Assembly (NCBI GenBank): GCA_951812805.1
Contig: CATOSZ010000003.1
Span: 698,557 to 762,556 of the forward strand
Reading direction: 5' to 3'
DNA: 64,000 nucleotides
Source of the DNA: an uncultured Alphaproteobacteria bacterium
GTDB lineage: Bacteria; Pseudomonadota; Alphaproteobacteria; GCA-2731375
Shown here: positions 1 through 59,514 of the stretch, piece by piece
How positions within the stretch are numbered: position 1 is the stretch's first letter
How the letters are laid out: every line of letters starts with the position of its first letter
Notes under the pieces: generated by a model
The model's database searches: none
The model's input: only the letters and a program-made list of their open reading frames with translations
Told to the model about the DNA's origin: nothing
Position numbers and translations under genes: made by a program

Positions 1-1344
1 AGGCGGATCGTCCGGGCCGCCGTGCCGGCGGGCTCGCGCTTCAAGGGCTATGAAGACTATCTGGTTCAGGACCTGCTCTGCCGGCCGAACACTGTCCTGT
101 TACGCCGCGAGCGCTGGCTGACGCCCGAGGGGGCCACGATCGTGGCGCCGCTGCCGGCGGGGACGCGCGGCCACTTCGGCCCGGCGCTCAGGCGTTTCGT
201 GCTGGCGCTCTATCATGGCGGCCAGACCAGCGCGGAGCGCTTGGCGCGGCTCTTGGACGACCTCGGCATCAAGATCTCCAAGCGCCAGGTGGTGCGGTTG
301 TTGAACGAGGGCCATGACGGCTTCGTCGCCGAGGGCGAGGCGGTGCTGCGCGCCGGCCTGGAGACGGCGCCCTGGATCAGCGTCGACGATACCGGCGCCC
401 GCCACGCCAACCGCAACGGGGTGACGAGCGGGATCGGCAACGACGCCTTCGCTTGGTTCGCCACGACGTTTTCCAAGAGCCGCTTGAACTTCCTGGAACG
501 GCTGCGGGCCGGCCACGCGGACTATGTGCTCAATGCCGCCGCCTTCGCCTACATGGCCGAGCGCGACCTGGCCGCATCGGTGATCGCCCGTCTGGCCGAG
601 GGCTGCCCGCGGCGCTTCACCAACGAAGATGCCTGGCTGGCCCACCTGGGGCGGCTCGCCATCACCGGGCACGGGGACGGGCGCGGGGCCGCGCGGACCG
701 CCACCGAGGGGGCGCTGTGGGGCGCCATCGCCGCGCACGGCCTGCTCAGGGGCACGGCCGCGGGCGCCTGCGTCGTCCTGAGTGACGATGCTGGCCAGTT
801 CAACGTCGGCCGCCACGCGCTCTGCTGGGTCCATGCGGAGCGCTTGATCCACAAGCTGATGACCTTCTCCCGGAGCCAGCGGCGCGAGAAGGAACACATC
901 CAGGCACGGCTCTGGCAACTCTACGCCGATCTCAAAGCCTATCGCGAAAGGCCGGCGCCAGGACGGCGGGCCCACCTGGCATGCCGCTTCGATGCGCTCT
1001 TCGCGACCAAGACCGGATTCCTCCGCCTCGACCGGCTCCTGGCTCGCCTGCATGCCAACCGCGACGAACTGCTCGTCGTCCTCGACCGCCCGGAGGTCCC
1101 GCTCAACACCAACGGCGCGGAACGCGACATCCGCGCCATGGTCACAAGGCGAAAATTCTCCGGCGGCACACGCTCCGAGGACGGCAAGCAGGCCCGAGAC
1201 ACATTCCTCGGCCTCTACAAGACCTGCCAGAAACTTGGCCTCTCCTTCTGGGATTATCTCGGCGACCGCCTCAAGGTCCCCGGCGCCCCACCCGTGCCCC
1301 CACTGCCGATCCTCGTCAGACAACGCTGCATCGAAATGGCTTGA
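1..1344 (+). CDS. IS66-family transposase (TnpC-type), 5' end missing
   Basis: DDE transposase of the IS66 family, identical over the visible part to the complete 532-residue copy at 57883-59481. The reading frame is already open at base 1. Visible catalytic-core signatures are WISVDDTGARH (first Asp), VVLSDDAGQF (second Asp) and NTNGAERDIRAMV (Glu). The leucine-zipper-like N-terminus seen in the full copy lies upstream of the window. No tnpA or tnpB partner is next to the complete copy, so this resembles the single-gene ISBst12-like subgroup; the subgroup is an inference from gene content. Confidence 0.93.
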   Translation, partial: RRIVRAAVPAGSRFKGYEDYLVQDLLCRPNTVLLRRERWLTPEGATIVAPLPAGTRGHFGPALRRFVLALYHGGQTSAERLARLLDDLGIKISKRQVVRLLNEGHDGFVAEGEAVLRAGLETAPWISVDDTGARHANRNGVTSGIGNDAFAWFATTFSKSRLNFLERLRAGHADYVLNAAAFAYMAERDLAASVIARLAEGCPRRFTNEDAWLAHLGRLAITGHGDGRGAARTATEGALWGAIAAHGLLRGTAAGACVVLSDDAGQFNVGRHALCWVHAERLIHKLMTFSRSQRREKEHIQARLWQLYADLKAYRERPAPGRRAHLACRFDALFATKTGFLRLDRLLARLHANRDELLVVLDRPEVPLNTNGAERDIRAMVTRRKFSGGTRSEDGKQARDTFLGLYKTCQKLGLSFWDYLGDRLKVPGAPPVPPLPILVRQRCIEMA

Positions 1345-1369
1345 CCGCCCGGGGTTTTGCCCCTGTTAC
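1..1369 (+). mobile_element. IS66-type insertion sequence, left part outside the window
   Basis: This is the right-hand part of the same element that lies complete at 57736-59506; the two agree from base 1 (equivalent to 58138) to the terminal GTTAC at 1365-1369, and their translations are identical over the shared 440 residues. The right terminal repeat is CCGGGGTTTTGCCCCTGTTAC. The bases after it (GAATAGCC, 1370-1377) would be one copy of the 8-bp target duplication, but the left copy is outside the window. The element ends 12 bases before the stop codon of the convergent NTF2-like gene. Confidence 0.93.
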
Positions 1370-1381
1370 GAATAGCCGCCC

Positions 1382-11451: not shown

Positions 11452-11563
11452 GTCCGGCCGCTTGCATGGCCGCGGCAACCACGTGGGCCAAATCGATGAC
11501 GCGGCATGCCGATCGGGACGTCTGAACCTGGAGGCAAACTCACTGTGCGCCCAAAATTTCCAC

Positions 11564-13115
11564 CTAGCAGCCTGTCGGACTTGAGCCGAGTTTCGAGATG
11601 AGATTCACTGTCACGGTCTGATTCTCTCCTGCGCGGTGATTTTGTGATGAGCAACTTTCGACAGGTTGACCGGGAGACCAGCTATCTTCTGCCGCCTTCG
11701 GTGGACGAATGGCTGCCTGATCGTCATCTGGCGCGCTTCGTGGTCGATGTGCTGGAGCAGCTGGATCTCTCTGCGTTCGTGAAGGCCTATCGTGGTTCGG
11801 GCTCGGCGGCGCATCACCCGAGCGTCCTGCTGGGCCTGCTGATCTACGGCTACGCGACGGGGGTGCATTCCAGCCGGAAGCTGGAGCGGGCGAGCTATGA
11901 TTCGGTGGCCTTCCGCTTCATCGCGGCAAACGACCACCCCGACCACGACACGATCGCCACGTTCCGCCGTCGCTTCCTGCCGCTGATCGAGGGGCTGTTC
12001 GTGCAGGTTCTGCTGCTGGCGCGGCAGGCCGGCATGCTGCAACTGGGCACGGTGGCGCTGGACGGGACGAAGATCCATGCCGACGCGAGCCGGCACAGCG
12101 CCCTGTCGTGGCAGCGTGCGGGCGAGATCGAAGCCCGGCTGCGGGCCGAGGTGGCGGAGTTGATGGCGTTGGCGGAAGCGGCGGACCGGTCCGAGGTTCC
12201 CGACGGCATGAGCGTGCCGGAGGAGCTGGCACGGCGCGAGGACCGGCTGGCGGCGATCGCCGCGGCGAAGGCGGAGATCGAGGCGCGGGCGGCCGAGCGT
12301 CATGCGCGGGAGCAGGCGGAGTACGAAGAGAAGCTGGCAGCCCGCGAGGCGAAGGAAACGCGGACCGGCCGCAAGCCGGGCGGGCGGCCACCGAAGCCGC
12401 CGGAGCCGGGGCCACGGGCGAAGGACCAGGTCAACCTGACGGACCCGGACTCGCGCATCATGCCGGTGGCCGGCGGCGGCTTCGAGCAGTGCTACAACGC
12501 CCAGGCTGCGGTGGCCGCCGGCAGCCTGCTGGTGGTCAGCGCCGACGTGGTGCAGGCGGCGAACGACAAGCAGCAGATCGAACCGACGCTCGAAGCACTC
12601 GCCGGCCTGCCGGACGGGCTTGGCGAGGTCGAGACCCTGTTGGCGGACAGCGGCTACTTCAGCCAGGCCAACGTCGAGGCCTGCGGGGAAGCGGAGATCG
12701 CGCCGCTGATCGCGCTCGGCCGGGAGCACCACCATCTTTCCTGGCGGGACCGCTTCGCCGAGGCGCCGCCAGCGCCCGAGGATCCGACGCCGCTCGAGGC
12801 GATGTGCCATCGCCTGGCCACACCCGAGGGCCGGGCGCTCTACGCGCTTCGCAAGCAGACGCCGGAGCCGGTGTTCGGCATCATCAAATCGGTGATGGGC
12901 TTGCGTCAGTTCAGCCTGCGCGGCCTCGACAAGGCGAAGGGGGAATGGACCTTGGCCACGCTCTCCTGGAACATCAAGCGGATGTTCGTCCTCAGCCACG
13001 CCTGAACGGGCGGGCCAACCCGCGTTCGCAACTTCATGGGGGTAAATCCATGACATCGACGCCCGCCAAGCCAATCTTACCAATCCTTGCATGCCCGAGT
13101 CCGACAGGCTGCTAG
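11564..13115 (+). mobile_element. IS1182-family insertion sequence, copy 1
   Basis: The terminal inverted repeats read CTAGCAGCCTGTCGGACTTG at the left end and CCGAGTCCGACAGGCTGCTAG at the right. The element is 1552 bp counting the CTAG at both ends and carries one transposase gene. The second copy at 48612-50163 has the same length and the same CTAG at both ends. CTAG is therefore either a fixed terminal tetranucleotide or a sequence-specific 4-bp target duplication. Removing the element leaves the palindromic site CACCTAGGTG. Both copies have the same orientation. Confidence 0.92.
11647..13005 (+). CDS. IS1182-family transposase
   Basis: A 452-residue DDE transposase. The N-terminus (RQVDRETSYLLPPSVDEWLP) is typical of the family. 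Catalytic residues lie in VALDGTKIHADAS (Asp), LADSGYFSQAN (Asp) and KQTPEPVFGIIKSV (Glu). A long charged, Ala/Glu-rich coiled segment sits in the middle. The ATG at 11647 is used; a GTG directly precedes it. The translation is identical to that of the copy at 48695-50053, which indicates recent transposition or gene conversion. Confidence 0.95.
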   Translation: MSNFRQVDRETSYLLPPSVDEWLPDRHLARFVVDVLEQLDLSAFVKAYRGSGSAAHHPSVLLGLLIYGYATGVHSSRKLERASYDSVAFRFIAANDHPDHDTIATFRRRFLPLIEGLFVQVLLLARQAGMLQLGTVALDGTKIHADASRHSALSWQRAGEIEARLRAEVAELMALAEAADRSEVPDGMSVPEELARREDRLAAIAAAKAEIEARAAERHAREQAEYEEKLAAREAKETRTGRKPGGRPPKPPEPGPRAKDQVNLTDPDSRIMPVAGGGFEQCYNAQAAVAAGSLLVVSADVVQAANDKQQIEPTLEALAGLPDGLGEVETLLADSGYFSQANVEACGEAEIAPLIALGREHHHLSWRDRFAEAPPAPEDPTPLEAMCHRLATPEGRALYALRKQTPEPVFGIIKSVMGLRQFSLRGLDKAKGEWTLATLSWNIKRMFVLSHA

Positions 13116-13788: not shown

Positions 13789-15012
13789 TCAGCCCAACTC
13801 GTCCGCAATATCGTCCCGGCGCGGGTCGCGCAGGCCGGTGCGGCCGTGGTGGCGGTCGGCTTGTTTGTAGCCGAGCGCGTCTTCGGCGATCAGGATCTTC
13901 TGCACGTTGGCCGTGCCCTCGCCGGTGAAGAACAGGTCGGCATAGGACTTGAGCCACGACACCCGGTATTCGAGGCTGAGGCCGTAGCCGCCGAAGATCT
14001 GCTGCGCCTTGTCCGCGACCAGCTTCGCCGTCCCGGAAGCATGGAACTTGGCGAGCGCCGCGATGCGGTTCGAAGGCAGGTCGGCGTCCAGATGGCGCGC
14101 CGCTTCGTAGACGAGCGCGCGGCTCGCTTCGATCGCCACGGCCATTTCCGCGATGTCGGATTGGATCATCTGAAAGCGGCCGATGGGCCGGCCGTGCAGT
14201 TCGCGCTCGCCCGCATAGCGCACCGCGTCCTCGAAGCAGGCGCGCGCGACGCCGAGCGCCTTGGCCGCCACCGTCACCCGGCCCGGCTGCAGCGCCCGCA
14301 TGACGATGGCGAAACCGTCCCCCTCGTCCCCCAGCCTGTTCTCCACCGGCACGACGAAATCATCGAGGAAGACCGCGCAGGTCCGCAGTGCCTTGGACAG
14401 GCCGTGCATCTCGATCGGCCGGGCTTCGAAGCCAGGGTACTTCTTCGGCTCGACGATGAAGGCGGTGACGCCGCGCGCGCCGGCGTCGGGATCCGTCTTG
14501 GCCAGCAGCACGCCGACGTCCGTCTCGTTCGCCATGGAGGCGAACATCTTGGCCCCGTTCAGGCGGTAGACCGCGCCGTCGCGTACCGCCCGGGTCTGCA
14601 TCTGCCCCAACGCGTCGGAGCCGCCGCCCGCTTCCGTCAGGCTCATCATGCCGATGGTCTCACCGGCCAGCAGCGGCGGCACGTACTTCATCACCTGTTC
14701 GGCGGTGCCGCCCGCATAGATGCACTGCGGGCAGGTCGAGCCCTGCTGGTTGTTGCAGGCGGCGAAGCGCACGTCGGCGCGGGCCAGCTCCTCGCTCACC
14801 ACCGCCGCGGCGACATAGCCGAGGTCGGTGCCACCGACCGATTCGGGAAACACCGCGCCGTAGAAGCCGGCGGCCCCCGCCTGGCGGACCAGCGCGCGGG
14901 GAAACTCGCCCCGCGCCTCGAAATCGTCCATGACCGGCACGACCTCGCGCGCCATGAAGCGGGCCACGGCGTCGCGGACCTGGCGGATTTCGTCGGGCAG
15001 CAATTCGTCCAT
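13789..15012 (-). CDS. Acyl-CoA dehydrogenase
   Basis: A 407-residue flavoprotein that oxidises acyl-CoA thioesters at the alpha-beta bond. N-terminal helical domain: LPDEIRQVRDAVARFMAREVVPV. Middle domain: GMMSLTEAGGGSDALGQMQTRA. C-terminal domain: QQIFGGYGLSLEYRVSWLKSYADLFFTGEGTANVQ, where the Glu of GEGTANVQ matches the usual catalytic base. The ATG at 15012 has GGAGGAG just upstream. It is divergent from the TauD gene with about 100 bases between, so they may share a regulatory region. The acyl substrate is unknown. Confidence 0.93.
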   Translation of the reverse strand: MDELLPDEIRQVRDAVARFMAREVVPVMDDFEARGEFPRALVRQAGAAGFYGAVFPESVGGTDLGYVAAAVVSEELARADVRFAACNNQQGSTCPQCIYAGGTAEQVMKYVPPLLAGETIGMMSLTEAGGGSDALGQMQTRAVRDGAVYRLNGAKMFASMANETDVGVLLAKTDPDAGARGVTAFIVEPKKYPGFEARPIEMHGLSKALRTCAVFLDDFVVPVENRLGDEGDGFAIVMRALQPGRVTVAAKALGVARACFEDAVRYAGERELHGRPIGRFQMIQSDIAEMAVAIEASRALVYEAARHLDADLPSNRIAALAKFHASGTAKLVADKAQQIFGGYGLSLEYRVSWLKSYADLFFTGEGTANVQKILIAEDALGYKQADRHHGRTGLRDPRRDDIADELG

Positions 15013-15115
15013 CGGCCTCCTCCCGTGGCGGTACGGGGGAATGTTATGCTGCGGGCCGGGCCGAAGGCCACGCCCGGCGAGGCGGCAGATGAACAGGAAT
15101 GTGGAGACCGGCGCC

Positions 15116-16057
15116 ATGAGCCAAAACGCGGATGCCATCCAGATCCACCCGCAGACGCTTTCGATCGGGGCCGAGATCACCGGCATCGATCTTTCGCAGC
15201 CGTTGGGTGAGGCGGCGCGGCGCGTCGTCTACGACGCCTTCCTCGAATGGAAGGTGGTGTTCTTCCGCGACCAGAACCTGGACCATGCCGCCCACGTCGC
15301 CTTCGCCCGCCAGATGGGGGAACCGACGATCGGCCATGCCGTCTTCGGCCACGAGACGGGCTTTCCCGAGATCTATTCGATCGCCAAGTTCCGCACCGCC
15401 AACAGCCACCGGGAGGCCCGCATGCAGCGGCCCTGGACCGGCTGGCATACGGACATCACGGCCGCCATCAACCCGCCGCTCGCCTCGATCCTGCGCGGCG
15501 TTACCATTCCGCCCTATGGCGGCGACACGCTGTGGACCGATCTGGCGGCCGCCTATCAGGGGCTTTCCGAAACCTTGCGCGGCTTCGTCGACGGGCTCAC
15601 CGGCATTCACCGTTTCGAGGCCCTGGTGAAGGGCGACGACTACGAGGAGAGCGTGCAGCGCCGCACCATGGAGAGCGAGCATCCGCTGGTTCGCGTGCAT
15701 CCCGAAACCGGCCGGCGCGTGCTCTACGTCAGTCCGTCCTTCCTGAAGTCCATCCCCGGCCTCAGCCCGCGCGAGGGGCAGCAGATCCTGGAGCTGTTGT
15801 GGGAGCATGCGGTGCGCCCGGAATACACGCTGCGTTTCAAGTGGCGGGCCGGCGACATCGCCATGTGGGACAACCGCTCGACCGCGCACCTGGCGCCGAG
15901 CGACATCTTCGAGAGCGATTTCGACCGCCAGCTCTATCGCATCACCCTGGTGGGCGACGTGCCGGTCGGCATCGACGGCCGCACCTCGCGGGCGTTGCAG
16001 GGCGAGCCGATCCTCTCGGCGGCGGCGGAACTGGAGGCGCTGGCCCGTGCCTCGTGA
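15116..16057 (+). CDS. TauD/TfdA-family Fe(II)/2-oxoglutarate dioxygenase
   Basis: A 313-residue non-haem iron dioxygenase. The iron site is visible as WHTDIT (His and Asp) and the distal His in MWDNRSTAHLAPSD; RQLYRITLVGD supplies the Arg that usually holds 2-oxoglutarate. The family hydroxylates sulfonates, phenoxyacetates, sulfate esters and related compounds, so the substrate stays open. The ATG at 15116 follows GGAGACC; an in-frame ATG at 15090 is an alternative. Its stop lies inside the next gene, so it is probably co-translated with the LLM monooxygenase, which could act on the same substrate class. Confidence 0.93.
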   Translation: MSQNADAIQIHPQTLSIGAEITGIDLSQPLGEAARRVVYDAFLEWKVVFFRDQNLDHAAHVAFARQMGEPTIGHAVFGHETGFPEIYSIAKFRTANSHREARMQRPWTGWHTDITAAINPPLASILRGVTIPPYGGDTLWTDLAAAYQGLSETLRGFVDGLTGIHRFEALVKGDDYEESVQRRTMESEHPLVRVHPETGRRVLYVSPSFLKSIPGLSPREGQQILELLWEHAVRPEYTLRFKWRAGDIAMWDNRSTAHLAPSDIFESDFDRQLYRITLVGDVPVGIDGRTSRALQGEPILSAAAELEALARAS

Positions 16058-17360
16058 GTTGCACCTGAACCTGTTCATCCAGAGCCGCGGCCACCACGAG
16101 GCATCCTGGCGCCACCCGAAGGCGACCCCGCACGGACTGACCGAGATCCGCTATTACCAGGAGTTGGCCCGGGCCGCCGAAGCGGCCTGTTTCGATTCGC
16201 TCTTCCTCGCCGACCAGCTGGCGGTGCCGGACGACGCCGCCCGCGCGCCGCGCAACTGGCTGGAGCCGATCACCGCGCTTGCCGCCGTCGCCGCGGTGAC
16301 GGAGCGGATCGGCCTCATCGCCACCGCGTCGTCGACCTATACCGAGCCGTTCAATCTCGCCCGCCAGTTCCAGTCCCTCGACCACATCTCCGGCGGCCGA
16401 GCGGGCTGGAACATCGTCACCTCCTGGTCGGTACCCGCGGCGCGCAACTACGGCGCCGGCGCGCAACTGAGCCACGAGGCGCGCTATGAGCGGGCGGAGG
16501 AATACGTCGGCGTGGTCAAGGCGTTGTGGGACAGTTGGGACGACGACGCGATCCTCGACGACACCGCCAGCGGCGACTACGCCCGCGCCGACGGCATCCG
16601 GGCGGTCGACCATGCGGGCGAACATTATTCGGTGGCCGGGCCGCTCAACGTGCCGCGCGGGCCGCAGGGCCGGCCGGTGCTGGTGCAGGCCGGCTCGTCC
16701 GACACCGGCCGCGCCTTCGCCGCCCGCCACGCCGAGGCGGTATTCACCGCGCATATGCAGCTGGAGACGGCGAAAGCCTTCTATGTCGACCTGAAGGCCC
16801 GGGTCGCCGCCGCCGGCCGCAAGCCCGAACACGTGCTGATCCTGCCCGGCCTCTCGCCGATGATCGGCTCGACCGAGGCCGAGGCGAAATGCTTCGCCGA
16901 GGAACTCGCCGATCTCGCGGATCCGGAGACCGGGCGCAAGCGGCTGTCAAACCGTTTCGGCGGGCACGACTTTTCCCATCTGCACCTCGACGTGCCGCTA
17001 CGGGCGGAGGATTTCCCGGCGCCCGAAACCGTCGAGGCGGCGCGCAGCCGGACCGAGGTCATCGTCGGCCTGGTCGAGCGCGAAGGCCTCACGCTCCGCC
17101 AGCTGCTCGGCCGCCTGGCCGGCGCGCGGGGCCATTTCACCTTCGCCGGCACCCCCGACCAGGTCTGCGACCTGATGGTGCGCTGGGCCGAGGCCGGCGC
17201 CTGCGACGGCTTCAACATGATGCCGCCGGTGCTGCCCTGGATGGCCGACGCGCTGGCCGAGGAGGTGATCCCCCGCTTGCAGGCCCGCGGGCTGTTCCGC
17301 AAGGCCTATGGCGGCGCCACCCTGCGCGATCACTTCGGGCTGCCGCGGCCCGGCTGTTGA
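16047..17360 (+). CDS. LLM-class FMN-dependent monooxygenase (NtaA/SnaA/DszA type)
   Basis: A 437-residue luciferase-like monooxygenase, which needs reduced FMN from a separate reductase. Subfamily marks include LHLNLFIQSRGHHEASWRHP, FDSLFLADQL, ISGGRAGWNIVTSW and GRPVLVQAGSSDTGRAFAARHAEAVF. These match enzymes that cleave nitrilotriacetate, EDTA or dibenzothiophene sulfone. Translation starts at GTG 16047, overlapping the end of the TauD gene by 11 bases. No FMN reductase gene is visible in the window, so a distant reductase must serve it. Confidence 0.9.
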   Translation: MPRELHLNLFIQSRGHHEASWRHPKATPHGLTEIRYYQELARAAEAACFDSLFLADQLAVPDDAARAPRNWLEPITALAAVAAVTERIGLIATASSTYTEPFNLARQFQSLDHISGGRAGWNIVTSWSVPAARNYGAGAQLSHEARYERAEEYVGVVKALWDSWDDDAILDDTASGDYARADGIRAVDHAGEHYSVAGPLNVPRGPQGRPVLVQAGSSDTGRAFAARHAEAVFTAHMQLETAKAFYVDLKARVAAAGRKPEHVLILPGLSPMIGSTEAEAKCFAEELADLADPETGRKRLSNRFGGHDFSHLHLDVPLRAEDFPAPETVEAARSRTEVIVGLVEREGLTLRQLLGRLAGARGHFTFAGTPDQVCDLMVRWAEAGACDGFNMMPPVLPWMADALAEEVIPRLQARGLFRKAYGGATLRDHFGLPRPGC

Positions 17361-17364
17361 GTGG

Positions 17365-18447
17365 TCAGGCCGCCATTCGGCCGGGGTTGCGCTCGACGAG
17401 CAGGGGCCGCACGAGGCGGCCGAAACGCTCCGCCTCCGCATCGTGCAGGTAGCCGGAGAGGCAGAAGGAGTGGCAGCCGGCGTCGATGAAGCGTTGCAGA
17501 GTCGCGGCGCATTGTTCGGGGTTGCCGACGACGGCGATGCCGGCGCCCGGACGGAACCGGGTGAGGCCGGTCCACAGGTGCGGGGCGATCCACAGGCCCT
17601 TCTCCGCCGCCAGCTGCTGCACCCGGCGGTTGGCCATGGAAGTCTGCGTGCGCCGCTTCAGCATCTCGCGCGCCGCTTCCGGCATGTCGCGGATCAGCCG
17701 GTCCGCCGCCTCCAGCGCTTCCGCCTCGCTCTCCCGGCAGATGATCTGCAGGCGCATGCCGAAGCCGATGTCGTCCGCCCGGCCGTGTTCGGCGGCACGG
17801 GCGCGGATGTCGGCGATGTTCTCCGCGATCCGTTCCGGCAGGTCGCCCCAGAAGAGATGCACGTCGGAATGCTTGGCCGAGAGGTTCCAGGCGTCTTCCG
17901 AACCGCCGCCGAGATAGAAGCGCGGGTGCGGCCGCTGCACCGGTTTCGGCGTGATGGAGGCGCCCTCGAGCTTGTGGAAGCGGCCCTCGAAATCGAGCGG
18001 GCCGTCCGCGGTCCACAGCGCTTTCAGGATCTCCACCTCTTCGTCCATCAGGGCATAGCGGTCTTCCTTGGCGTAAGTGATGCCTTCCGCCGCGAGTTCG
18101 GTTTCCGCCTGACCGGCGATCAGGTTGACGCAGATCCGCCCCCCGGACATGGCATCGAAGGTGGCGATCATCTTGGCCAGCAGGACCGGATTGACGTAGC
18201 CGGGACGCGCCGCGATCAGCGGCGCGATGCGGCTGGTCCGCGCGGCCATGAAGGCGCCGGCGATATAGGCTTCCCAGCAGCGCCGGTCGACCGGGATCAA
18301 CATGTAGGTGAAGCCCGCCGCCTCCGCCGCCTCGACCACCCGCAGCAGGTATTCGGGCGTGACCTCGACGCTCGCCTCGCGAACGCCGTACGCCGTGGTA
18401 TCGCCACTGGTCGGCAGGAACCAGCCGAATTCGAGCGCGCGCGTCAT
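17365..18447 (-). CDS. LLM-class flavin monooxygenase (SsuD-like)
   Basis: A 360-residue luciferase-like enzyme resembling alkanesulfonate monooxygenase: EFGWFLPTSGDTTAYG, LIAARPGYVNPVLLAKMIAT, FDAMSGGRICVNLIAG and PRFYLGGGSEDAWNLSAKH. The ATG at 18447 has GGAGGTGAGG immediately upstream. It converges on the NtaA-type gene with 4 bases between the stop codons. It shares little sequence with the two other LLM enzymes of the window, so they are not recent duplicates. The substrate could be an organosulfonate but that is inferred from the family. Confidence 0.88.
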   Translation of the reverse strand: MTRALEFGWFLPTSGDTTAYGVREASVEVTPEYLLRVVEAAEAAGFTYMLIPVDRRCWEAYIAGAFMAARTSRIAPLIAARPGYVNPVLLAKMIATFDAMSGGRICVNLIAGQAETELAAEGITYAKEDRYALMDEEVEILKALWTADGPLDFEGRFHKLEGASITPKPVQRPHPRFYLGGGSEDAWNLSAKHSDVHLFWGDLPERIAENIADIRARAAEHGRADDIGFGMRLQIICRESEAEALEAADRLIRDMPEAAREMLKRRTQTSMANRRVQQLAAEKGLWIAPHLWTGLTRFRPGAGIAVVGNPEQCAATLQRFIDAGCHSFCLSGYLHDAEAERFGRLVRPLLVERNPGRMAA

Positions 18448-18472
18448 CCTCACCTCCGTCCCTTCGGGCCGA

Positions 18473-19777
18473 CTATACGGCCTCGTCCGCATCGACCGCC
18501 AGCAGGTTGACCGCCGCATCGCGGCCCTTGACCCGCTGCGCGCCGACCGGGCGGAGCGCGAAGCCCGCGGGCAATCGCGCCGCCACCGCGTCGGAAATCA
18601 GCAGGCTTTCGCCCAGTTCCTTGCAGGCGTCCTGGATGCGGCTCGCGGTGTTCACCACGTCGCCGACGACGGTGTATTCCAGCCGCGCCTCGGTACCGAT
18701 GTTGCCGGCGACGACGGTGCCATGGTGGATGCCGATCCCGTGGCGGATCGGCGGCTGGCCCGCCCCGGCCCGCTCCGCGTTCAACACGGCGAGCGCCCGG
18801 TTCATGGCCAGGGCCGCACGCACGGCCCGTTCGGCGTCGTCGGCGGCCGGCTCCGGCGTGCCGAAGGTCACCATGATGCCGTCGCCGATGAACTTGTCGA
18901 TCGTGCCCTCGAAGGTGAAGACCGCGTCCAGCATCGCCGTGTGATAGCGCGAGAGGAAGGCGACGACGTCGGCCGGCGGCAGAGTTTCGGTCAGTGTCGT
19001 GAAGTCGCGGATGTCGGAGAACAGCACCGCCACCTCCTGCGCCCGCCCGCCGATCTGCGAGATGTCCTCGCCGCCGCCGGCGATGCGCGCGACGACGCCG
19101 GGCGAGAAATAGCGCCCCAGCCGGGCGTTGGCGACCTCCAGGCCGACCGCCTGGATCACCGTCTGGCGGGCGAGATGGGTGAGATAGGCGAGCGCCAGGC
19201 CGCTCGCCGCCACGATCAGCATGGCGATGGCGACGAACTCGACGCTGAGCGCCGGGCCCAGCGCCGAGGCGACGAAATCGGAAGAAACCTGGGTGCGCGG
19301 GTCGGCAAGGGCGAAATGGAGAAGGCCGCCGTGTACGGCGACCCCGCCGAGGGCGACGAGAAGCGGATAGAGCGGGCGCATCGCTAGCGCGTTCAGCGCC
19401 ACCACACCGAGGGTGAGCACCGTCGCCTGGGTCTTCAGCATGTAGGCGGGCGCGACCTCCGCCCCGCCGACGGAGAGGTACCAGACCACCGGCAGGGTCG
19501 CGAGCACGCCGATATCGACCAGGACGCCGGCAAGGCCGACGGCGGACACCGCGCGGCGCTGGCCGAGCAGATGGAGCGAGACGAGAATCACGGCCAGAAC
19601 CAGCAGCGCGAGCCCGGTCGTCACCAGCTTCTCGAATAGGTTGACGCCGATCACCCAGACCGTGCTCGCGACGAGGACGACGAAACCGGCGCGGACCAGC
19701 GACAGCGTCCGCACGCCGCGCCGTTCCCGCTCGAACAGCAGGGCCTCGGCGCGGGGCGGCAGGTGGGACACGGTCAT
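18473..19777 (-). CDS. Membrane-anchored class III adenylate/guanylate cyclase
   Basis: A 434-residue protein with about six hydrophobic segments in residues 25-215, followed by a cytoplasmic class III cyclase domain: VAVLFSDIRDFTTLTETL (metal Asp), FEGTIDKFIGDGIMVTFG (second metal Asp and Lys), and GDVVNTASRIQDACKEL. It should make cAMP or cGMP in response to a membrane or envelope signal. No HAMP or other known sensor module is visible. It is the second class III cyclase in the window and has a quite different architecture from the one at 4768-8049. Confidence 0.92.
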   Translation of the reverse strand: MTVSHLPPRAEALLFERERRGVRTLSLVRAGFVVLVASTVWVIGVNLFEKLVTTGLALLVLAVILVSLHLLGQRRAVSAVGLAGVLVDIGVLATLPVVWYLSVGGAEVAPAYMLKTQATVLTLGVVALNALAMRPLYPLLVALGGVAVHGGLLHFALADPRTQVSSDFVASALGPALSVEFVAIAMLIVAASGLALAYLTHLARQTVIQAVGLEVANARLGRYFSPGVVARIAGGGEDISQIGGRAQEVAVLFSDIRDFTTLTETLPPADVVAFLSRYHTAMLDAVFTFEGTIDKFIGDGIMVTFGTPEPAADDAERAVRAALAMNRALAVLNAERAGAGQPPIRHGIGIHHGTVVAGNIGTEARLEYTVVGDVVNTASRIQDACKELGESLLISDAVAARLPAGFALRPVGAQRVKGRDAAVNLLAVDADEAV

Positions 19778-19857: not shown

Positions 19858-21066
19858 ATGCCGCTCAACGCCATTCACCCGGGCGATCCGGAACTCTACC
19901 GCTCCGATTCCTGGCGGCCGGCCTTCGCCCGGCTGCGCGCCGAGGCGCCGCTGCATCGCTGTGCCGACAGTCCCTACGGCCCGTATTGGTCGGTCACCAG
20001 CCATGCGCTGGTCACCGAAGTGGAACTCCAGCCCGTGATCTTTTCCAACCGGGCCGATCTCGGCGGCATCCAGCTGCAGGACATCGCCGCCGGCATGGAC
20101 CGGCCGAGCTTTGTCGGCATGGACCCACCCGAGCATACGCCCCGGCGCCGTGCCGTGGCCCCGATGACCAACAGGTCCAGCCTGAACGGCTTTACGGAGG
20201 TGATCCGCGAGCGGACGGCCCGGGTGCTCGACGCGTTGCCGCGCGGTGAGACCTTCGATTGGGCCGACCGGGTGGCGACGGAGCTGACGGGCATGATGCT
20301 CGCCACCATGTTCAATTGGCCGCAGGCGCGCCGGCGCGAGCTCATCCACTGGTCCGACGTCGCCACGGCCAATATCCAGGCCGCGGATGCCCCTGTGCGA
20401 TCGGAAGATGCGCGCTATGCCGAATTGCAGCGCATGGCCGACGCCTTCGCACCACTCTGGGCGGAGCGCCGGGACGGGCGCGGCGGCTTCGACCTGATCT
20501 CCATGCTGGCCAATGCCGAGGCGACCCGCGACATGGACCGGGAGGAGTTCATCGGCACCCTGTTCCTGCTGATCGTCGGCGGCAACGACACGACGCGCAA
20601 TTCCATGTCGGGCGGGCTGCTGGCCCTGGACCGCAACCCGGCGGAGTGGGAGAAGCTCCGCGCCGATCCGACCCTCGTCCCCAACATGGTGAGCGAGAGT
20701 ATTCGCTGGCAGACGCCGGTCCTGCACATGCGCCGCACCGCGCTCGCCGAGACGGAGATCGCCGGCCACGCCATCGCCCAGGGCGACAAGGTCGTGATGT
20801 GGTACGTCTCCGCCAATCGGGACGAAACGGTGTTCGAGGACGCGGACGACTTCCGGGTCGACCGGGCCAACGCGCGGCGCCATCTCTCGTTCGGCGCCGG
20901 CATCCATCGTTGCGTCGGCGACAAGCTGGCCGAGCTGCAACTCCGCATCCTTTGGGAAGAAGTGCTGGCCCGCGACCTCCGCATCGACGTGGTGGGCGAG
21001 CCGGAGCGGCTCTATTCCAATTTCATCCGGGGTTTTACCTCGCTACCGGCCCGAATCCGGGCTTGA
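19858..21066 (+). CDS. Cytochrome P450, CYP153-like
   Basis: A 402-residue haem monooxygenase. I-helix GGNDTTRNSMSGG, ExxR motif ESIRW, and haem loop LSFGAGIHRCVGDKLAELQL with axial Cys352. The segments NMVSESIRWQTP, MRRTALAETEIAGH and VVMWYVSANRDETVF closely resemble the CYP153 family of terminal alkane and fatty-acid hydroxylases; this assignment is from memory. CYP153 enzymes need a ferredoxin and its reductase, neither of which is encoded nearby. It leads a coupled run: a VOC protein 18 bases downstream, then the carotenoid oxygenase and GST, each overlapping the previous gene. Confidence 0.92.
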   Translation: MPLNAIHPGDPELYRSDSWRPAFARLRAEAPLHRCADSPYGPYWSVTSHALVTEVELQPVIFSNRADLGGIQLQDIAAGMDRPSFVGMDPPEHTPRRRAVAPMTNRSSLNGFTEVIRERTARVLDALPRGETFDWADRVATELTGMMLATMFNWPQARRRELIHWSDVATANIQAADAPVRSEDARYAELQRMADAFAPLWAERRDGRGGFDLISMLANAEATRDMDREEFIGTLFLLIVGGNDTTRNSMSGGLLALDRNPAEWEKLRADPTLVPNMVSESIRWQTPVLHMRRTALAETEIAGHAIAQGDKVVMWYVSANRDETVFEDADDFRVDRANARRHLSFGAGIHRCVGDKLAELQLRILWEEVLARDLRIDVVGEPERLYSNFIRGFTSLPARIRA

Positions 21067-21084
21067 AACGACAGGACATTCGCC

Positions 21085-21492
21085 ATGAAGGAAATCACCG
21101 GCATCAATCACGTGGGCATCCGGGTGCGCGACCTGGCCACCACACGGGCATTCTACGAGAAGCTCGGCTTCGACTTCATCGTCGGCCCGATCGGGCCGGA
21201 ACCGGTGGCGGTGATGGAGCATCCCTCGGGCGTGAACCTGAACTTCATCCTGAACACCACCGACGACGCCGCGGCGGAGAACCTGCTGATGGACGTCGCC
21301 GTGAAGCACACCGGCTATACCCACATGGCGTTGGAAATCACCGACCGCGCGGCGGTGAAGGCGCGGCTGGCGGAACTCGGCCTGCCGATCACCGAGACGG
21401 TCGATCTGCCGGACGGCGCCCAGTTCTTCTTCGTCCGCGACCCCGACGGCAACGTCATCGAGCTGCATCACCCGGCCGAGCCGACGGTATGA
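21085..21492 (+). CDS. VOC (glyoxalase/bleomycin-resistance/dioxygenase) superfamily protein
   Basis: A 135-residue protein with a paired beta-alpha-beta-beta-beta layout: INHVGIRVRDLATTRAFYEKL opens the first half (potential metal His), GYTHMALEITDRAAVKARL the second, and FVRDPDGNVIELHHP closes it with the usual metal-binding Glu. The family includes lyases, dioxygenases and binding proteins. Its stop overlaps the start of the next gene as ATGA, so it is translated together with a carotenoid-oxygenase-type enzyme. Confidence 0.85.
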   Translation: MKEITGINHVGIRVRDLATTRAFYEKLGFDFIVGPIGPEPVAVMEHPSGVNLNFILNTTDDAAAENLLMDVAVKHTGYTHMALEITDRAAVKARLAELGLPITETVDLPDGAQFFFVRDPDGNVIELHHPAEPTV

Positions 21493-22955
21493 GCGGCACC
21501 GAGACGGCCTATCCGGTCAACCGCTACCTCGCCGGCAATTTCGCCCCGGTCGAGGACGGGCGGGACATCGATGACACCGAAATGACAGTGATAGGCGAGC
21601 TGCCGGGCGATCTCGACGGCGTCTTCGTGCGCAATGGGCCGAACCAGCGCCATGCGCCGCCCGGCAACTATCACCGCTACGACGGCGACGGGATGCTGCA
21701 TGCGATCCACTTCGAAGGTGGCCGGGCGCGCTATCGCAACCGCTGGATCCGCACCCGCTGTTTCGAGGAGGAAGCGGCGGCGGGGCATGCGCTCTGGGGC
21801 GGCATGCTGGATCCCCGGCGCGACGACCGCCCGGATATGCCGCTGAAGGACACGGCGAACACCGACGTGATGCTGCACGCCGGGCGCCTGGTCACCATGT
21901 GGTACATGTCGGGCCAACCCTATCTCGTCGATCCCGTCACCTTGGAAACCCTCGGCCCGGCCCCCCTCGGCGGCGACGGGCCACGGCGGATTTCCGCCCA
22001 CGCCAAAACCGACGAGGCGAACGGCGACTTCGTCTTCTTCGATTACGGGCGCGAGCCGCCCTACATGCACATGGGCGTCGTCGACGCGGCGGGCAGGCTC
22101 ACCGCGTCGACGCCGATCGCGCTGCCGGGGCCGCGTCTGCCGCACGACATGTGGATGTCGCGCCGTCACACTGTGCTGCACGACCTGCCGCTGATCTGGG
22201 ACGAGGAGGCCTATCATAACGGCCGGGTGAAGCTGCGCTTCGAGGCCGACTGGCCGACCCGCTTCGGCGTCATTCCCCGCCACGGCACGGCGGACGAACT
22301 GCGCTGGTACGAGTTCGAGCCCTGCTACCTGCTGCACACCATCAACGCCTGGGAGGCGGGCGACTGGCTGCACCTCACCGGTTGCCGCATCCAGCCCTTC
22401 ACCGATGCCCACGGCCAGCCCGACCTGCAATCGATCGTCACCATCATGGGCCGCCACAAGCTGAACGCCCGGCTCTATAAATGGTCGATCAACCTGGCGA
22501 CCGGCGAAACCCGCGAAGGCCTGCTGGACGATCGCTGGAACGCGGAGTTCCCGGCCTGGAACAACGCGTTGATGGGAACGCCGATGCGCAATGCCTACTG
22601 CGCCGAGATCGAGGTCGAGCCCACGATCCGCTTCGCCGGCCTGCTGAAGTTCGATCTCGAAACCGGTGCGGCCGAGCATTTCGCCGGCCCCGCCGACTGC
22701 GCCTATGGCGAGGTGGCCTTCGCGCCGGCGAGCGGCGGCGGCGACGAGGATGCGGGCTATCTGATCGGCTTCGCGCGCAACGAGGCCGAGGCCCGCTCGG
22801 AGGTCCATATCTTCGACGCCCGCAATCTCCCGGACGGCCCGATCTGCAAGCTGCTGCTGCCCTGCCGCGTGCCGGAAGGCTTCCACGCCACCTGGGCCCG
22901 GGGCGACCTGCTGAGCGCGGCGGCGGCAACTTCACAGGGAGGATACACGGCATGA
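21489..22955 (+). CDS. Carotenoid-cleavage-oxygenase family protein
   Basis: A 488-residue seven-blade-propeller iron oxygenase of the retinal pigment epithelial/lignostilbene dioxygenase family. Four iron-binding His are seen in RRISAHAKTD, RLPHDMWMS, CYLLHTINAWE and EGFHATWARG; ELPGDLDGVFVRNGPNQ and YHRYDGDGMLHAI are family motifs near the N-terminus. Members cleave double bonds in carotenoids, apocarotenoids or stilbenoid and phenylpropenoid compounds. No carotenoid synthesis gene is nearby, so a stilbene or terpenoid substrate seems at least as likely. Start and stop overlap the neighbouring genes as ATGA. Confidence 0.92.
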   Translation: MSGTETAYPVNRYLAGNFAPVEDGRDIDDTEMTVIGELPGDLDGVFVRNGPNQRHAPPGNYHRYDGDGMLHAIHFEGGRARYRNRWIRTRCFEEEAAAGHALWGGMLDPRRDDRPDMPLKDTANTDVMLHAGRLVTMWYMSGQPYLVDPVTLETLGPAPLGGDGPRRISAHAKTDEANGDFVFFDYGREPPYMHMGVVDAAGRLTASTPIALPGPRLPHDMWMSRRHTVLHDLPLIWDEEAYHNGRVKLRFEADWPTRFGVIPRHGTADELRWYEFEPCYLLHTINAWEAGDWLHLTGCRIQPFTDAHGQPDLQSIVTIMGRHKLNARLYKWSINLATGETREGLLDDRWNAEFPAWNNALMGTPMRNAYCAEIEVEPTIRFAGLLKFDLETGAAEHFAGPADCAYGEVAFAPASGGGDEDAGYLIGFARNEAEARSEVHIFDARNLPDGPICKLLLPCRVPEGFHATWARGDLLSAAAATSQGGYTA

Positions 22956-23575
22956 TCCTGTACACCGACGCCACCACGCCGTTCGGGCGCAAGTGCCTCG
23001 TCGCCGCGTTGGAGCGCGCCATCGTGCTGGAGGAGTGTTTCGTCAGCCTCGCCGATCCCGGCGAGTTCCTCGAGATCAACCCACTGAACCAGATCCCAGC
23101 CCTCGCGGCCGAGGCGGACGTCTGCCACTTCGACAGCGACGTGATCCTGCAGTATCTCGATACCCGGCACGACGGCCCGTCCCTGATCCCGGCGACGGAG
23201 CGCTTTCGCCATCTGACGGCGATCCACCTGGCCAACGGCGTGATCGAGAGCACGCTGCTCCGGATCATGGAAACCCGGCGCCCGGCGGGGGAGAAGAGTC
23301 CGGGCTTCATCGCCCACCTCGAGGCGCGAATCGCCCGCGGCATCGACCGGATGGCGCGGGATCGGACGGCACCGACCAGCGGCCCCTTGAGCGCCGAGGA
23401 AATCACCACGGCCGTCGCGCTCGACTATGTCGATTTCCGCCATCCCCACGACTGGCGCTCGACCGCGCCGAACCTCGCGGCCTGGCACGAGGCGATCGCC
23501 GCCCGGCCGTCCTTCTCGCTCAGCCGGCCGACGCGGGACGCGCCGACCCATTCGCCGCCGCGCTTCGCCGCCTGA
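22952..23575 (+). CDS. Glutathione S-transferase family protein
   Basis: A 207-residue protein with a thioredoxin-like N-terminal domain (MILYTDATTPFGRKCLVAAL; NPLNQIPAL with the conserved cis-Pro; DSDVILQYLD) and an all-helical C-terminal domain. It could add glutathione to a reactive product or break an ether link, as in lignin-type catabolism. Its ATG overlaps the carotenoid oxygenase stop as ATGA, making it the last of four coupled genes. GGGAGGA lies about 10 bases upstream. Confidence 0.88.
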   Translation: MILYTDATTPFGRKCLVAALERAIVLEECFVSLADPGEFLEINPLNQIPALAAEADVCHFDSDVILQYLDTRHDGPSLIPATERFRHLTAIHLANGVIESTLLRIMETRRPAGEKSPGFIAHLEARIARGIDRMARDRTAPTSGPLSAEEITTAVALDYVDFRHPHDWRSTAPNLAAWHEAIAARPSFSLSRPTRDAPTHSPPRFAA

Positions 23576-23580
23576 ACGCG

Positions 23581-23814
23581 CTATTCGCCATCCGCCCGGC
23601 AGGTCCGGGTGAAGCCGGCGTTGCCGCCCGGCACGAAGCGGGCGATGAGGGCCGCGGCCGCATAGGCGCCGAAGGCAAGGGCCAGAATCACGTAGAACAT
23701 CGTCGGCGACCAGGCGGTCCACAACAGCAGCGCACCGACCAACGAGAAGATCCGCAAGCCCGCGACCGCCGGCGGGGCCCAGGGGTTGGGCGGCCGCTCG
23801 TCCGCGAGGCTCAC
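23581..23814 (-). CDS. Small membrane protein after hyuB
   Basis: A 77-residue protein with two hydrophobic segments (IFSLVGALLLWTAWSP and FYVILALAFGAYAAAALIARFV). It begins 10 bases after the hyuB stop codon and is the last gene of a six-gene minus-strand run. It converges on the GST gene with 5 bases between stop codons. I do not recognise a family; the position suggests an accessory of the transporter or hydantoinase in this run. Confidence 0.6.
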   Translation of the reverse strand: MSLADERPPNPWAPPAVAGLRIFSLVGALLLWTAWSPTMFYVILALAFGAYAAAALIARFVPGGNAGFTRTCRADGE

Positions 23815-23824
23815 GTCGCCGTCC

Positions 23825-48490: not shown

Positions 48491-48611
48491 CGGGTGCTTG
48501 GACTTCGAATGTGGTAATATACTACTATCGTCTGCGTTTGCTGCGGCTGTAGTTGCCAAAGCTTGAAGTGCAGGTCGATCACGGAAACTTGATCGGACTC
48601 CAAGAGAGTGC

Positions 48612-50163
48612 CTAGCAGCCTGTCGGACTTGAGCCGAGTTTCGAGATGAGATTCACTGTCACGGTCTGATTCTCTCCTGCGCGGTGATTTTGTGATGAGC
48701 AACTTTCGACAGGTTGACCGGGAGACCAGCTATCTTCTGCCGCCTTCGGTGGACGAATGGCTGCCTGATCGTCATCTGGCGCGCTTCGTGGTCGATGTGC
48801 TGGAGCAGCTGGATCTCTCTGCGTTCGTGAAGGCCTATCGTGGTTCGGGCTCGGCGGCGCATCACCCGAGCGTCCTGCTGGGCCTGCTGATCTACGGCTA
48901 CGCGACGGGGGTGCATTCCAGCCGGAAGCTGGAGCGGGCGAGCTATGATTCGGTGGCCTTCCGCTTCATCGCGGCAAACGACCACCCCGACCACGACACG
49001 ATCGCCACGTTCCGCCGTCGCTTCCTGCCGCTGATCGAGGGGCTGTTCGTGCAGGTTCTGCTGCTGGCGCGGCAGGCCGGCATGCTGCAACTGGGCACGG
49101 TGGCGCTGGACGGGACGAAGATCCATGCCGACGCGAGCCGGCACAGCGCCCTGTCGTGGCAGCGTGCGGGCGAGATCGAAGCCCGGCTGCGGGCCGAGGT
49201 GGCGGAGTTGATGGCGTTGGCGGAAGCGGCGGACCGGTCCGAGGTTCCCGACGGCATGAGCGTGCCGGAGGAGCTGGCACGGCGCGAGGACCGGCTGGCG
49301 GCGATCGCCGCGGCGAAGGCGGAGATCGAGGCGCGGGCGGCCGAGCGTCATGCGCGGGAGCAGGCGGAGTACGAAGAGAAGCTGGCAGCCCGCGAGGCGA
49401 AGGAAACGCGGACCGGCCGCAAGCCGGGCGGGCGGCCACCGAAGCCGCCGGAGCCGGGGCCACGGGCGAAGGACCAGGTCAACCTGACGGACCCGGACTC
49501 GCGCATCATGCCGGTGGCCGGCGGCGGCTTCGAGCAGTGCTACAACGCCCAGGCTGCGGTGGCCGCCGGCAGCCTGCTGGTGGTCAGCGCCGACGTGGTG
49601 CAGGCGGCGAACGACAAGCAGCAGATCGAACCGACGCTCGAAGCACTCGCCGGCCTGCCGGACGGGCTTGGCGAGGTCGAGACCCTGTTGGCGGACAGCG
49701 GCTACTTCAGCCAGGCCAACGTCGAGGCCTGCGGGGAAGCGGAGATCGCGCCGCTGATCGCGCTCGGCCGGGAGCACCACCATCTTTCCTGGCGGGACCG
49801 CTTCGCCGAGGCGCCGCCAGCGCCCGAGGATCCGACGCCGCTCGAGGCGATGTGCCATCGCCTGGCCACACCCGAGGGCCGGGCGCTCTACGCGCTTCGC
49901 AAGCAGACGCCGGAGCCGGTGTTCGGCATCATCAAATCGGTGATGGGCTTGCGTCAGTTCAGCCTGCGCGGCCTCGACAAGGCGAAGGGGGAATGGACCT
50001 TGGCCACGCTCTCCTGGAACATCAAGCGGATGTTCGTCCTCAGCCACGCCTGAACGGGCGGGCCAACCCGCGTTCGCAACTTCATGGGGGTAAATCCATG
50101 ACATCGACGCCCGCCAAGCCAATCTTACCAATCCTTGCATGCCCGAGTCCGACAGGCTGCTAG
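48612..50163 (+). mobile_element. IS1182-family insertion sequence, copy 2
   Basis: Same length, ends and orientation as the copy at 11564-13115, exactly 37048 bases further along. CTAG is present at both ends; the outer flanks (GAGTGC and AAGTAAG) differ from those of copy 1. It marks the boundary between the GC-rich metabolic block and the accessory region that follows. Confidence 0.92.
48695..50053 (+). CDS. IS1182-family transposase
   Basis: Its 452-residue translation is identical to that of copy 1 at 11647-13005, with the same DDE residues (VALDGTKIHADAS, LADSGYFSQAN, KQTPEPVFGIIKSV). It looks intact and could act on either copy. Confidence 0.95.
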   Translation: MSNFRQVDRETSYLLPPSVDEWLPDRHLARFVVDVLEQLDLSAFVKAYRGSGSAAHHPSVLLGLLIYGYATGVHSSRKLERASYDSVAFRFIAANDHPDHDTIATFRRRFLPLIEGLFVQVLLLARQAGMLQLGTVALDGTKIHADASRHSALSWQRAGEIEARLRAEVAELMALAEAADRSEVPDGMSVPEELARREDRLAAIAAAKAEIEARAAERHAREQAEYEEKLAAREAKETRTGRKPGGRPPKPPEPGPRAKDQVNLTDPDSRIMPVAGGGFEQCYNAQAAVAAGSLLVVSADVVQAANDKQQIEPTLEALAGLPDGLGEVETLLADSGYFSQANVEACGEAEIAPLIALGREHHHLSWRDRFAEAPPAPEDPTPLEAMCHRLATPEGRALYALRKQTPEPVFGIIKSVMGLRQFSLRGLDKAKGEWTLATLSWNIKRMFVLSHA

Positions 50164-57735: not shown

Positions 57736-59506
57736 GTAACCGGGGCAAAAGGCCGGGCCTGGGGACGGGGGGATCTGGCCTGGGTATAGGGGTGAGTCTC
57801 AACGGCCACATCTTGTGAGGCTTCCGCGTCAAGTGACCAGATATCGATGTTCGCGGCGGGAGGTCTGTGATTCGATCCCGTCATGGCCGAATCGCTTCCG
57901 GATCTCGACGATCTTGATGTCGCCGCCCTGAAGGCGCTGGTTCTGACGCTGCTTGAGGAGCAGGCGGCCCTGCGTGCCGAGAACGCGACATTGCGCGAAG
58001 AGATCCGCCGTCTCAAAGGCCTTTCCGGGCCACCGGATATCAAGCCGAGCGGCATGGACAAGCAGGCCGTATCCCGGGGCCGGACGGGGCGGAAGGCGGG
58101 ACGGCGGGCCAAGAAGGGCCGGGTTCCCATCGACGAGAGGCGGATCGTCCGGGCCGCCGTGCCGGCGGGCTCGCGCTTCAAGGGCTATGAAGACTATCTG
58201 GTTCAGGACCTGCTCTGCCGGCCGAACACTGTCCTGTTACGCCGCGAGCGCTGGCTGACGCCCGAGGGGGCCACGATCGTGGCGCCGCTGCCGGCGGGGA
58301 CGCGCGGCCACTTCGGCCCGGCGCTCAGGCGTTTCGTGCTGGCGCTCTATCATGGCGGCCAGACCAGCGCGGAGCGCTTGGCGCGGCTCTTGGACGACCT
58401 CGGCATCAAGATCTCCAAGCGCCAGGTGGTGCGGTTGTTGAACGAGGGCCATGACGGCTTCGTCGCCGAGGGCGAGGCGGTGCTGCGCGCCGGCCTGGAG
58501 ACGGCGCCCTGGATCAGCGTCGACGATACCGGCGCCCGCCACGCCAACCGCAACGGGGTGACGAGCGGGATCGGCAACGACGCCTTCGCTTGGTTCGCCA
58601 CGACGTTTTCCAAGAGCCGCTTGAACTTCCTGGAACGGCTGCGGGCCGGCCACGCGGACTATGTGCTCAATGCCGCCGCCTTCGCCTACATGGCCGAGCG
58701 CGACCTGGCCGCATCGGTGATCGCCCGTCTGGCCGAGGGCTGCCCGCGGCGCTTCACCAACGAAGATGCCTGGCTGGCCCACCTGGGGCGGCTCGCCATC
58801 ACCGGGCACGGGGACGGGCGCGGGGCCGCGCGGACCGCCACCGAGGGGGCGCTGTGGGGCGCCATCGCCGCGCACGGCCTGCTCAGGGGCACGGCCGCGG
58901 GCGCCTGCGTCGTCCTGAGTGACGATGCTGGCCAGTTCAACGTCGGCCGCCACGCGCTCTGCTGGGTCCATGCGGAGCGCTTGATCCACAAGCTGATGAC
59001 CTTCTCCCGGAGCCAGCGGCGCGAGAAGGAACACATCCAGGCACGGCTCTGGCAACTCTACGCCGATCTCAAAGCCTATCGCGAAAGGCCGGCGCCAGGA
59101 CGGCGGGCCCACCTGGCATGCCGCTTCGATGCGCTCTTCGCGACCAAGACCGGATTCCTCCGCCTCGACCGGCTCCTGGCTCGCCTGCATGCCAACCGCG
59201 ACGAACTGCTCGTCGTCCTCGACCGCCCGGAGGTCCCGCTCAACACCAACGGCGCGGAACGCGACATCCGCGCCATGGTCACAAGGCGAAAATTCTCCGG
59301 CGGCACACGCTCCGAGGACGGCAAGCAGGCCCGAGACACATTCCTCGGCCTCTACAAGACCTGCCAGAAACTTGGCCTCTCCTTCTGGGATTATCTCGGC
59401 GACCGCCTCAAGGTCCCCGGCGCCCCACCCGTGCCCCCACTGCCGATCCTCGTCAGACAACGCTGCATCGAAATGGCTTGACCGCCCGGGGTTTTGCCCC
59501 TGTTAC
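57736..59506 (+). mobile_element. IS66-type insertion sequence, complete copy
   Basis: 1771 bp. The left end is GTAACCGGGGCAAAAGGCCG from 57736 and the right end, read inward from 59506, is GTAACAGGGGCAAAACCCCG. The flanks are a perfect 8-bp direct repeat GACCAAGG (57728-57735 and 59507-59514), the target duplication size known for IS66. It carries a single transposase gene and no tnpA or tnpB. It separates the PilZ gene from the glycosyltransferase gene. Confidence 0.96.
57883..59481 (+). CDS. IS66-family transposase (TnpC-type), complete
   Basis: A 532-residue DDE transposase. N-terminal leucine-zipper-like helix (LEEQAALRAENATLREEIRR), a basic linker (GRTGRKAGRRAKKGR), then the catalytic core: WISVDDTGARH, VVLSDDAGQF and NTNGAERDIRAMVTRRKFSG. 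The C-terminus is the usual short domain. Its last 440 residues are identical to the partial copy at the window start. The ATG at 57883 is the only sensible start. Confidence 0.96.
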   Translation: MAESLPDLDDLDVAALKALVLTLLEEQAALRAENATLREEIRRLKGLSGPPDIKPSGMDKQAVSRGRTGRKAGRRAKKGRVPIDERRIVRAAVPAGSRFKGYEDYLVQDLLCRPNTVLLRRERWLTPEGATIVAPLPAGTRGHFGPALRRFVLALYHGGQTSAERLARLLDDLGIKISKRQVVRLLNEGHDGFVAEGEAVLRAGLETAPWISVDDTGARHANRNGVTSGIGNDAFAWFATTFSKSRLNFLERLRAGHADYVLNAAAFAYMAERDLAASVIARLAEGCPRRFTNEDAWLAHLGRLAITGHGDGRGAARTATEGALWGAIAAHGLLRGTAAGACVVLSDDAGQFNVGRHALCWVHAERLIHKLMTFSRSQRREKEHIQARLWQLYADLKAYRERPAPGRRAHLACRFDALFATKTGFLRLDRLLARLHANRDELLVVLDRPEVPLNTNGAERDIRAMVTRRKFSGGTRSEDGKQARDTFLGLYKTCQKLGLSFWDYLGDRLKVPGAPPVPPLPILVRQRCIEMA

Positions 59507-59514
59507 GACCAAGG

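Follow-up and report, generated by a model that had tools for sequence, protein, structure and literature searches.

Do four tightly packed genes of a hydroxylase, a metal enzyme, an iron oxygenase and a transferase encode one metabolic chain and, if they do, is that chain shared with other bacteria or was it put together locally? The question is raised by a 64,000-nucleotide stretch of DNA from an uncultured alphaproteobacterium (contig CATOSZ010000003.1, positions 698,557 to 762,556), which was analysed at its full length and is called the window here. Within it a cytochrome P450, a VOC-family enzyme, a carotenoid-oxygenase family enzyme (CCD) and a glutathione S-transferase (GST) are encoded in a row on one strand. 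We read them as a small catabolic or detoxifying operon, re-partnered in this lineage and forming a hydroxylate-cleave-conjugate chain, of which we infer the substrate class, the order of the steps and the glutathione chemistry; we put the probability of this reading at about 0.42. The operon consists of the following features:

19858..21066, + strand: CYP153-like cytochrome P450, 402 amino acids (Pfam PF00067; 52.5% identity to CYP153A7 over 400 columns)
21067..21084, + strand: gap of 18 bases between the P450 and VOC genes (DNA sequence)
21085..21492, + strand: predicted VOC-family metal enzyme, 135 amino acids (Pfam PF00903, Glyoxalase; His9, His80, Glu126)
21489..21492, + strand: ATGA overlap of the VOC and CCD genes (DNA sequence)
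21489..22955, + strand: carotenoid-oxygenase (RPE65) family enzyme, CCD, 488 amino acids (Pfam PF03055; Asp126 clade)
22952..22955, + strand: ATGA overlap of the CCD and GST genes (DNA sequence)
22952..23575, + strand: YibF-like GST, 207 amino acids (N- and C-terminal GST domains)

The open reading frames and the DNA agree with the first-pass annotation in the gene order, the short gap and the two ATGA joins: the TGA stop of the P450 gene ends at 21066 and the VOC start codon ATG follows at 21085, 18 bases on. Its family names for the four proteins are borne out by Pfam. The two overlaps together with the 18-base gap argue for joint expression of the four genes in this organism.

The same gene order, which the first-pass annotation had proposed to look for in other genomes, was not repeated among the samples examined, so that within these samples the outcome is the one that it had named as showing a chance grouping. 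Each of the four proteins was searched in the own genome and in 60 relatives; for VOC and CCD the search was extended to 385 genomes of the class; at least 80 CCD loci were obtained from a scan of one genome per species, covering 84,980 species; and plasmids were searched with CCD and VOC, six places being read there, four by tblastn (loci L221–L224) and two by annotation (L274 and L275). The loci of the species scan, at least 80 in number, contained no P450, VOC or GST match at an E value of 1e-4. Among 273 loci, at an E value of 1e-8, two of the four core genes occurred together outside this genome in three loose cases only: a 33% CCD and a 33% GST on the opposite strand, 1.4 kb apart (L034); a 67% P450 and a 32% CCD, 7.5 kb apart (L212); and a 72% VOC and a 30% P450, 7.7 kb apart (L214). 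No second core gene was present at any of the six plasmid loci. A conserved four-gene P450-VOC-CCD-GST system was therefore rejected, and the lack of a repeat in these samples indicates a lineage-specific operon and not a known conserved pathway; the existence of an operon in this organism is not weakened by the missing conservation, because it rests on the overlaps. Also rejected was an origin of the entire block from a plasmid: in a distant search of plasmid DNA no record covered 80% of it, the matches being separate P450 or CCD pieces. The first-pass annotation knew of no described pathway with this combination, which agrees with the literature, where we found no description of the four-gene set, a weak negative given that titles and abstract openings were covered and subscription journals only thinly.

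The occurrence of the four genes elsewhere suggests that they have separate histories and were brought together in this lineage, and that CCD changed its partners. CCD is the sole PF03055 match in its own genome. Copies with 66–68% identity are found in five genomes of one sister genus (L025–L029), without P450, VOC or GST beside them; there a divergent gene for a thiamine-pyrophosphate (TPP) enzyme is present at all five loci, and a luciferase-like monooxygenase and an MFS transporter follow CCD at three of the five (L025, L026 and L027), the latter two genes being unmatched nearby in L028 and L029 being too short to judge. The best homologues of these partners in the genome studied here, 58% for the TPP enzyme (C3:2190444) and 56% for the monooxygenase (C1:226915), lie away from CCD (C3:720045). 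P450 relatives with 67–71% identity stand next to other genes in the sister genus, among the matches listed, and for GST none of the matches listed from the 60 relatives exceeds 41%. VOC has no close homologue in 14 genomes of the same family (best E value 8.9e-6) and has homologues at 53–78% in other families of the class, as found in the 385-genome search. One VOC homologue, at 67% identity, stands alone on a conjugative Acaryochloris plasmid (L221:8001-8408), near LuxR-type and AraC-type regulators.

The P450 can be aligned from end to end with CYP153A7 (3rwl), and the 52.5% identity across 400 columns bears out the label "CYP153-like" given at first pass. Assignment to a CYP family generally calls for identity above 40% to one of its members. 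The protein keeps GGNDTT, ESIRW and FGAGIHRCVG, which we take to be P450 motifs. Genes of CYP153 enzymes usually, though not universally, adjoin those of their own ferredoxin and reductase. The window P450 differs from the CYP153 alkane hydroxylases, which it resembles in sequence, in having no such gene beside it and in that its close copies in the family (67–71%) adjoin other genes; the closest Fer2 match of the contig begins ~37 kb beyond the window. The best solved relatives of the other two accessory proteins are FosA and glyoxalase I, of the VOC superfamily, for VOC and YibF-type transferases for GST. The His-His-Glu triad of VOC (His9, His80 and Glu126), predicted to bind a metal, is kept in all homologues displayed; unlike FosA and glyoxalase I, the window VOC belongs to a close set of its own with members at 53–78%. 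Both the N-terminal and the C-terminal domains of GST score above the Pfam cut-offs. For every NCBIfam model that VOC and GST match, their scores stay far short of the cut-off.

CCD scores 371 bits against the PF03055 cut-off of 27, and its predicted model (pLDDT 94.3, pTM 0.93) is a seven-bladed propeller with Z 40–45 to solved CCDs. Alignment indicates that the four iron-binding histidines are kept (His171, His219, His283 and His466), as are the second-sphere residues Glu353 and Glu408; Tyr139 occupies the place of Glu135 of the lignostilbene dioxygenase LSD4, so that two of three Glu are retained. Despite the missing third Glu, the fold, the Pfam score and the four histidines place the protein in the RPE65/carotenoid cleavage oxygenase superfamily. 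It stays below the cut-offs of curated models for narrower functions, with 229 bits against 675 for the 8'-apo-carotenoid 13,14-cleaving dioxygenase (NF052295) and 217 bits against 800 for the NCBIfam lignostilbene dioxygenase. By sequence the best solved relative is plant CCD1 (Osmanthus fragrans; 7vud, 9m6z), which has the same propeller fold (Z 42) and the four histidines, but which is only ~31% identical, keeps the Glu, has Ala at the Asp126 place and is not part of a bacterial operon like this one. In the tree the window CCD and its clade group with five alphaproteobacterial CCDs and plant CCD1 (support 98), a position that would lean to isoprenoids, (apo)carotenoids among them, and away from stilbenes.

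The missing Glu is not peculiar to the window protein. A study of LSD4 (PMC8191317) lists Glu135/353/418 as second-sphere acidic residues and describes Glu135 as hydrogen-bonded to His218; at this place LsdA has MK-EDSP and the window CCD reads MWYMSGQP, with one residue extra. We compared 166 CCD sequences: that of the window, 133 from loci, two from solved structures and 30 retrieved by searching the phylum for the family, the reading frames of the last being chosen by BLAST. The Glu is absent from its place in 116 of them, and all 116 have Asp126 directly after the occluding Thr125; the remaining 50 carry the Glu without exception (in register in 49, shifted by one column in L312) and none has Asp126. 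The ratio of 116 to 50 says nothing on abundance, since most entries were chosen for their relatedness to the window CCD. Within the Glu-less set Asp126 and Thr125 are invariant and position 139 is occupied by Tyr (108 sequences), Ser (three), Trp (three) or Phe (two); one row lacks two of the four histidines in the alignment and one row has Gln at 408. In a tree of 113 rows, which was built by a quick method and in which several long branches were flagged, all 85 rows with Asp126 and without the Glu lie on one side of one branch (SH-aLRT 100); judged by this tree the change occurred a single time, and the perfect association of the two residues counts as one event.

Residues 126–130 and 133–137 form neighbouring strands in the predicted model. 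Because residue 139 varies and Asp126 does not, we infer from the alignment that Asp126 may have taken over the second-sphere carboxylate role from the Glu. If the carboxylate did move, the clade offers a natural experiment on the tuning of O2 activation by second-sphere charge in four-histidine iron enzymes. No solved structure from the clade was found, since the solved relatives have at most ~31% identity to the window CCD, below the 37% of the lowest clade member in the alignment. The clade or its loss of the Glu was not found in any paper, again a weak negative from titles and abstract openings with thin coverage of subscription journals. The enzyme families of the operon are known, the grouping was not seen elsewhere, and CCD departs from a feature described as conserved.

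Another CCD subfamily, which keeps the Glu, is ~82% identical between two sister-genus genomes (L035:1-8644 and L037:7119-15888); its gene is divergent to a gene of 312 residues, hydantoinase B and A genes and the gene of a different TPP enzyme, in a conserved arrangement. Nine clade loci (L042, L058, L060, L062, L067, L080, L089, L108 and L224) each have at least two CCD genes close together that belong to different sub-branches.

The neighbourhood of the wider clade was scored by tblastn at an E value of 1e-30, with queries taken from the proteins encoded in two annotated plasmid neighbourhoods, in 78 loci from the species scan (the two closest orthologues, L039 and L040, being set aside), 13 of the 78 being under 10 kb. 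An acyl-coenzyme A (acyl-CoA) ligase was found in 39 loci, a regulator in 32, a thiolase in 31 and a nitronate-monooxygenase-like (NMO-like) gene in 24. At least one of ligase, thiolase and NMO-like gene was present in 55 of the 78 loci, two in 30 and all three in nine; for full-length loci the share with at least one was 36 of 41, and one was found in two of 23 control loci, the controls being fewer and from other taxa. In a Bacillota locus (L069) the NMO, AMP-binding and thiolase families were confirmed by Pfam. These neighbours point to catabolism, with the cleavage product being broken down via CoA esters. Among the CCDs of Cupriavidus plasmids (L223 and L274), which are accompanied by a nitronate monooxygenase, an adenylate-forming enzyme, a hydrolase, a thiolase and a porin and not by P450, VOC or GST, the L223 enzyme belongs to the same clade, with Asp126, no Glu and ~41% identity to the window CCD.

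With somewhat less than an even chance of being right, we tentatively regard the window CCD as an example of a large bacterial branch, represented in Pseudomonadota, Actinomycetota, Chloroflexota, Bacillota and Myxococcota, in which an invariant Asp next to the occluding Thr would have taken the place of the usual Glu as a second-sphere carboxylate of the four-histidine iron. Many of its members would serve in an undescribed catabolic route with the acyl-CoA ligase, the thiolase and the flavin mononucleotide (FMN) nitronate-monooxygenase-like enzyme, and the window operon would be a re-partnered offshoot. The clade neighbourhood offers an entry point to the route by which bacteria from several phyla would break down some conjugated compound.

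In the window operon itself, the P450 would hydroxylate a hydrophobic, probably isoprenoid-like compound, CCD would use O2 at its four-histidine iron to cleave a conjugated C=C bond, and the reactive aldehyde or enone so formed would be the substrate of the VOC enzyme and GST, probably together with glutathione. CCD, which in the sister genus accompanies the TPP enzyme and often the luciferase-like monooxygenase, would have been joined here to P450, VOC and GST. Such a hydroxylate-split-conjugate chain is plausible, being supported by the overlaps, the intact iron and haem motifs, the CYP153 identity, the VOC triad, the CCD1-side place in the tree, the catabolic neighbours of the clade and the location of the best TPP-enzyme and monooxygenase homologues elsewhere in the genome. 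It would show a possible new use of a CCD-type enzyme through a change of neighbours. Several observations weigh against the chain: the four-gene order occurs in one genome only among the genomes, loci and plasmids examined (large samples, though non-exhaustive); VOC homologues elsewhere share no partner by eye, except in two genomes of one genus; the cluster contains no ferredoxin or reductase gene, the Fer2 matches of the genome lying elsewhere; the clade queries found no CoA ligase, thiolase or NMO-like gene in the window; and clade members have no assigned substrate.

The unrepeated order could also be explained by a loose grouping of four broad-specificity or detoxifying enzymes that share one promoter and act on different compounds, not in sequence. 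The GST without relatives above 41% among the matches listed, the other neighbours of VOC elsewhere and the 1553-base insertion sequence (IS) on either side of the region fit this explanation, whereas the two ATGA overlaps and the 18-base gap suggest fixed co-expression; we consider it doubtful, though a serious candidate. It is unlikely that the CCD products enter acyl-CoA breakdown as acids, with P450, VOC and GST as helpers and with the upstream acyl-CoA dehydrogenase, TauD-like and luciferase-like genes in the same set. The ligase, thiolase and NMO-like neighbours of the clade and the presence of those upstream genes at 13.8–18.5 kb in the window speak for such a route, but the closest CCD orthologues (66–68%) have no CoA ligase beside them, the thiolase near two of them is 31–32% identical to the query, and the upstream genes are separate units, some of them on the other strand.

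It is very improbable that CCD is a lignostilbene-type dioxygenase acting on plant stilbenes, with GST in an aryl-ether or reduction step. CCD does share with LsdA, NOV1 and LSD4 the fold (Z 43–44.5, also to LsdA and LSD4 in particular), the four histidines, two second-sphere Glu and the occluding Thr, a residue that PMC12051055 calls invariable in the stilbenoid-cleaving clade. The Thr is also present in 38 of 50 other CCDs, however, and being so common does not decide for stilbenes. The substrate residues of LSD4 given in PMC8191317 are Phe59, Tyr101 and Lys134, the last two holding the phenol; they align with Tyr64, Met106 and Trp138 of the window CCD. The comparison with lignostilbene enzymes suggested at first pass thus speaks against stilbenes, with Tyr101, Lys134 and Glu135 replaced by Met, Trp and Tyr (Met106, Trp138 and Tyr139). 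The score far under the lignostilbene cut-off and the tree, which joins the clade with CCD1 and not with LsdA (itself on a long branch), agree with this, and a lignostilbene dioxygenase was rejected by sequence on the replaced residues and the curated scores.

The operon is bounded on the 5' side by a divergent cyclase gene, 80 bases from the P450 gene, and on the 3' side of GST by a convergent hydantoinase B gene. Between GST and the latter, on the - strand at ~23590-23815, an open frame of ~75 residues reads like a small membrane protein. The adjoining region of the window at 13789-18519 is a run of genes, on both strands, for an acyl-CoA dehydrogenase, a TauD-like dioxygenase and two luciferase-like monooxygenases. 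An element of 1553 bases, which has inverted ends and a DDE transposase, is present twice in direct orientation (window positions 11563-13115 and 48611-50163); the copies are 100% identical and flank ~35.5 kb that includes the operon. This interval is possibly a composite mobile unit; no target duplication was established at the copies of the element. A further pair of identical sequences, 1371 bases long and containing open reading frames, occupies window positions 1-1371 and 58138-59508 and is probably another mobile element.

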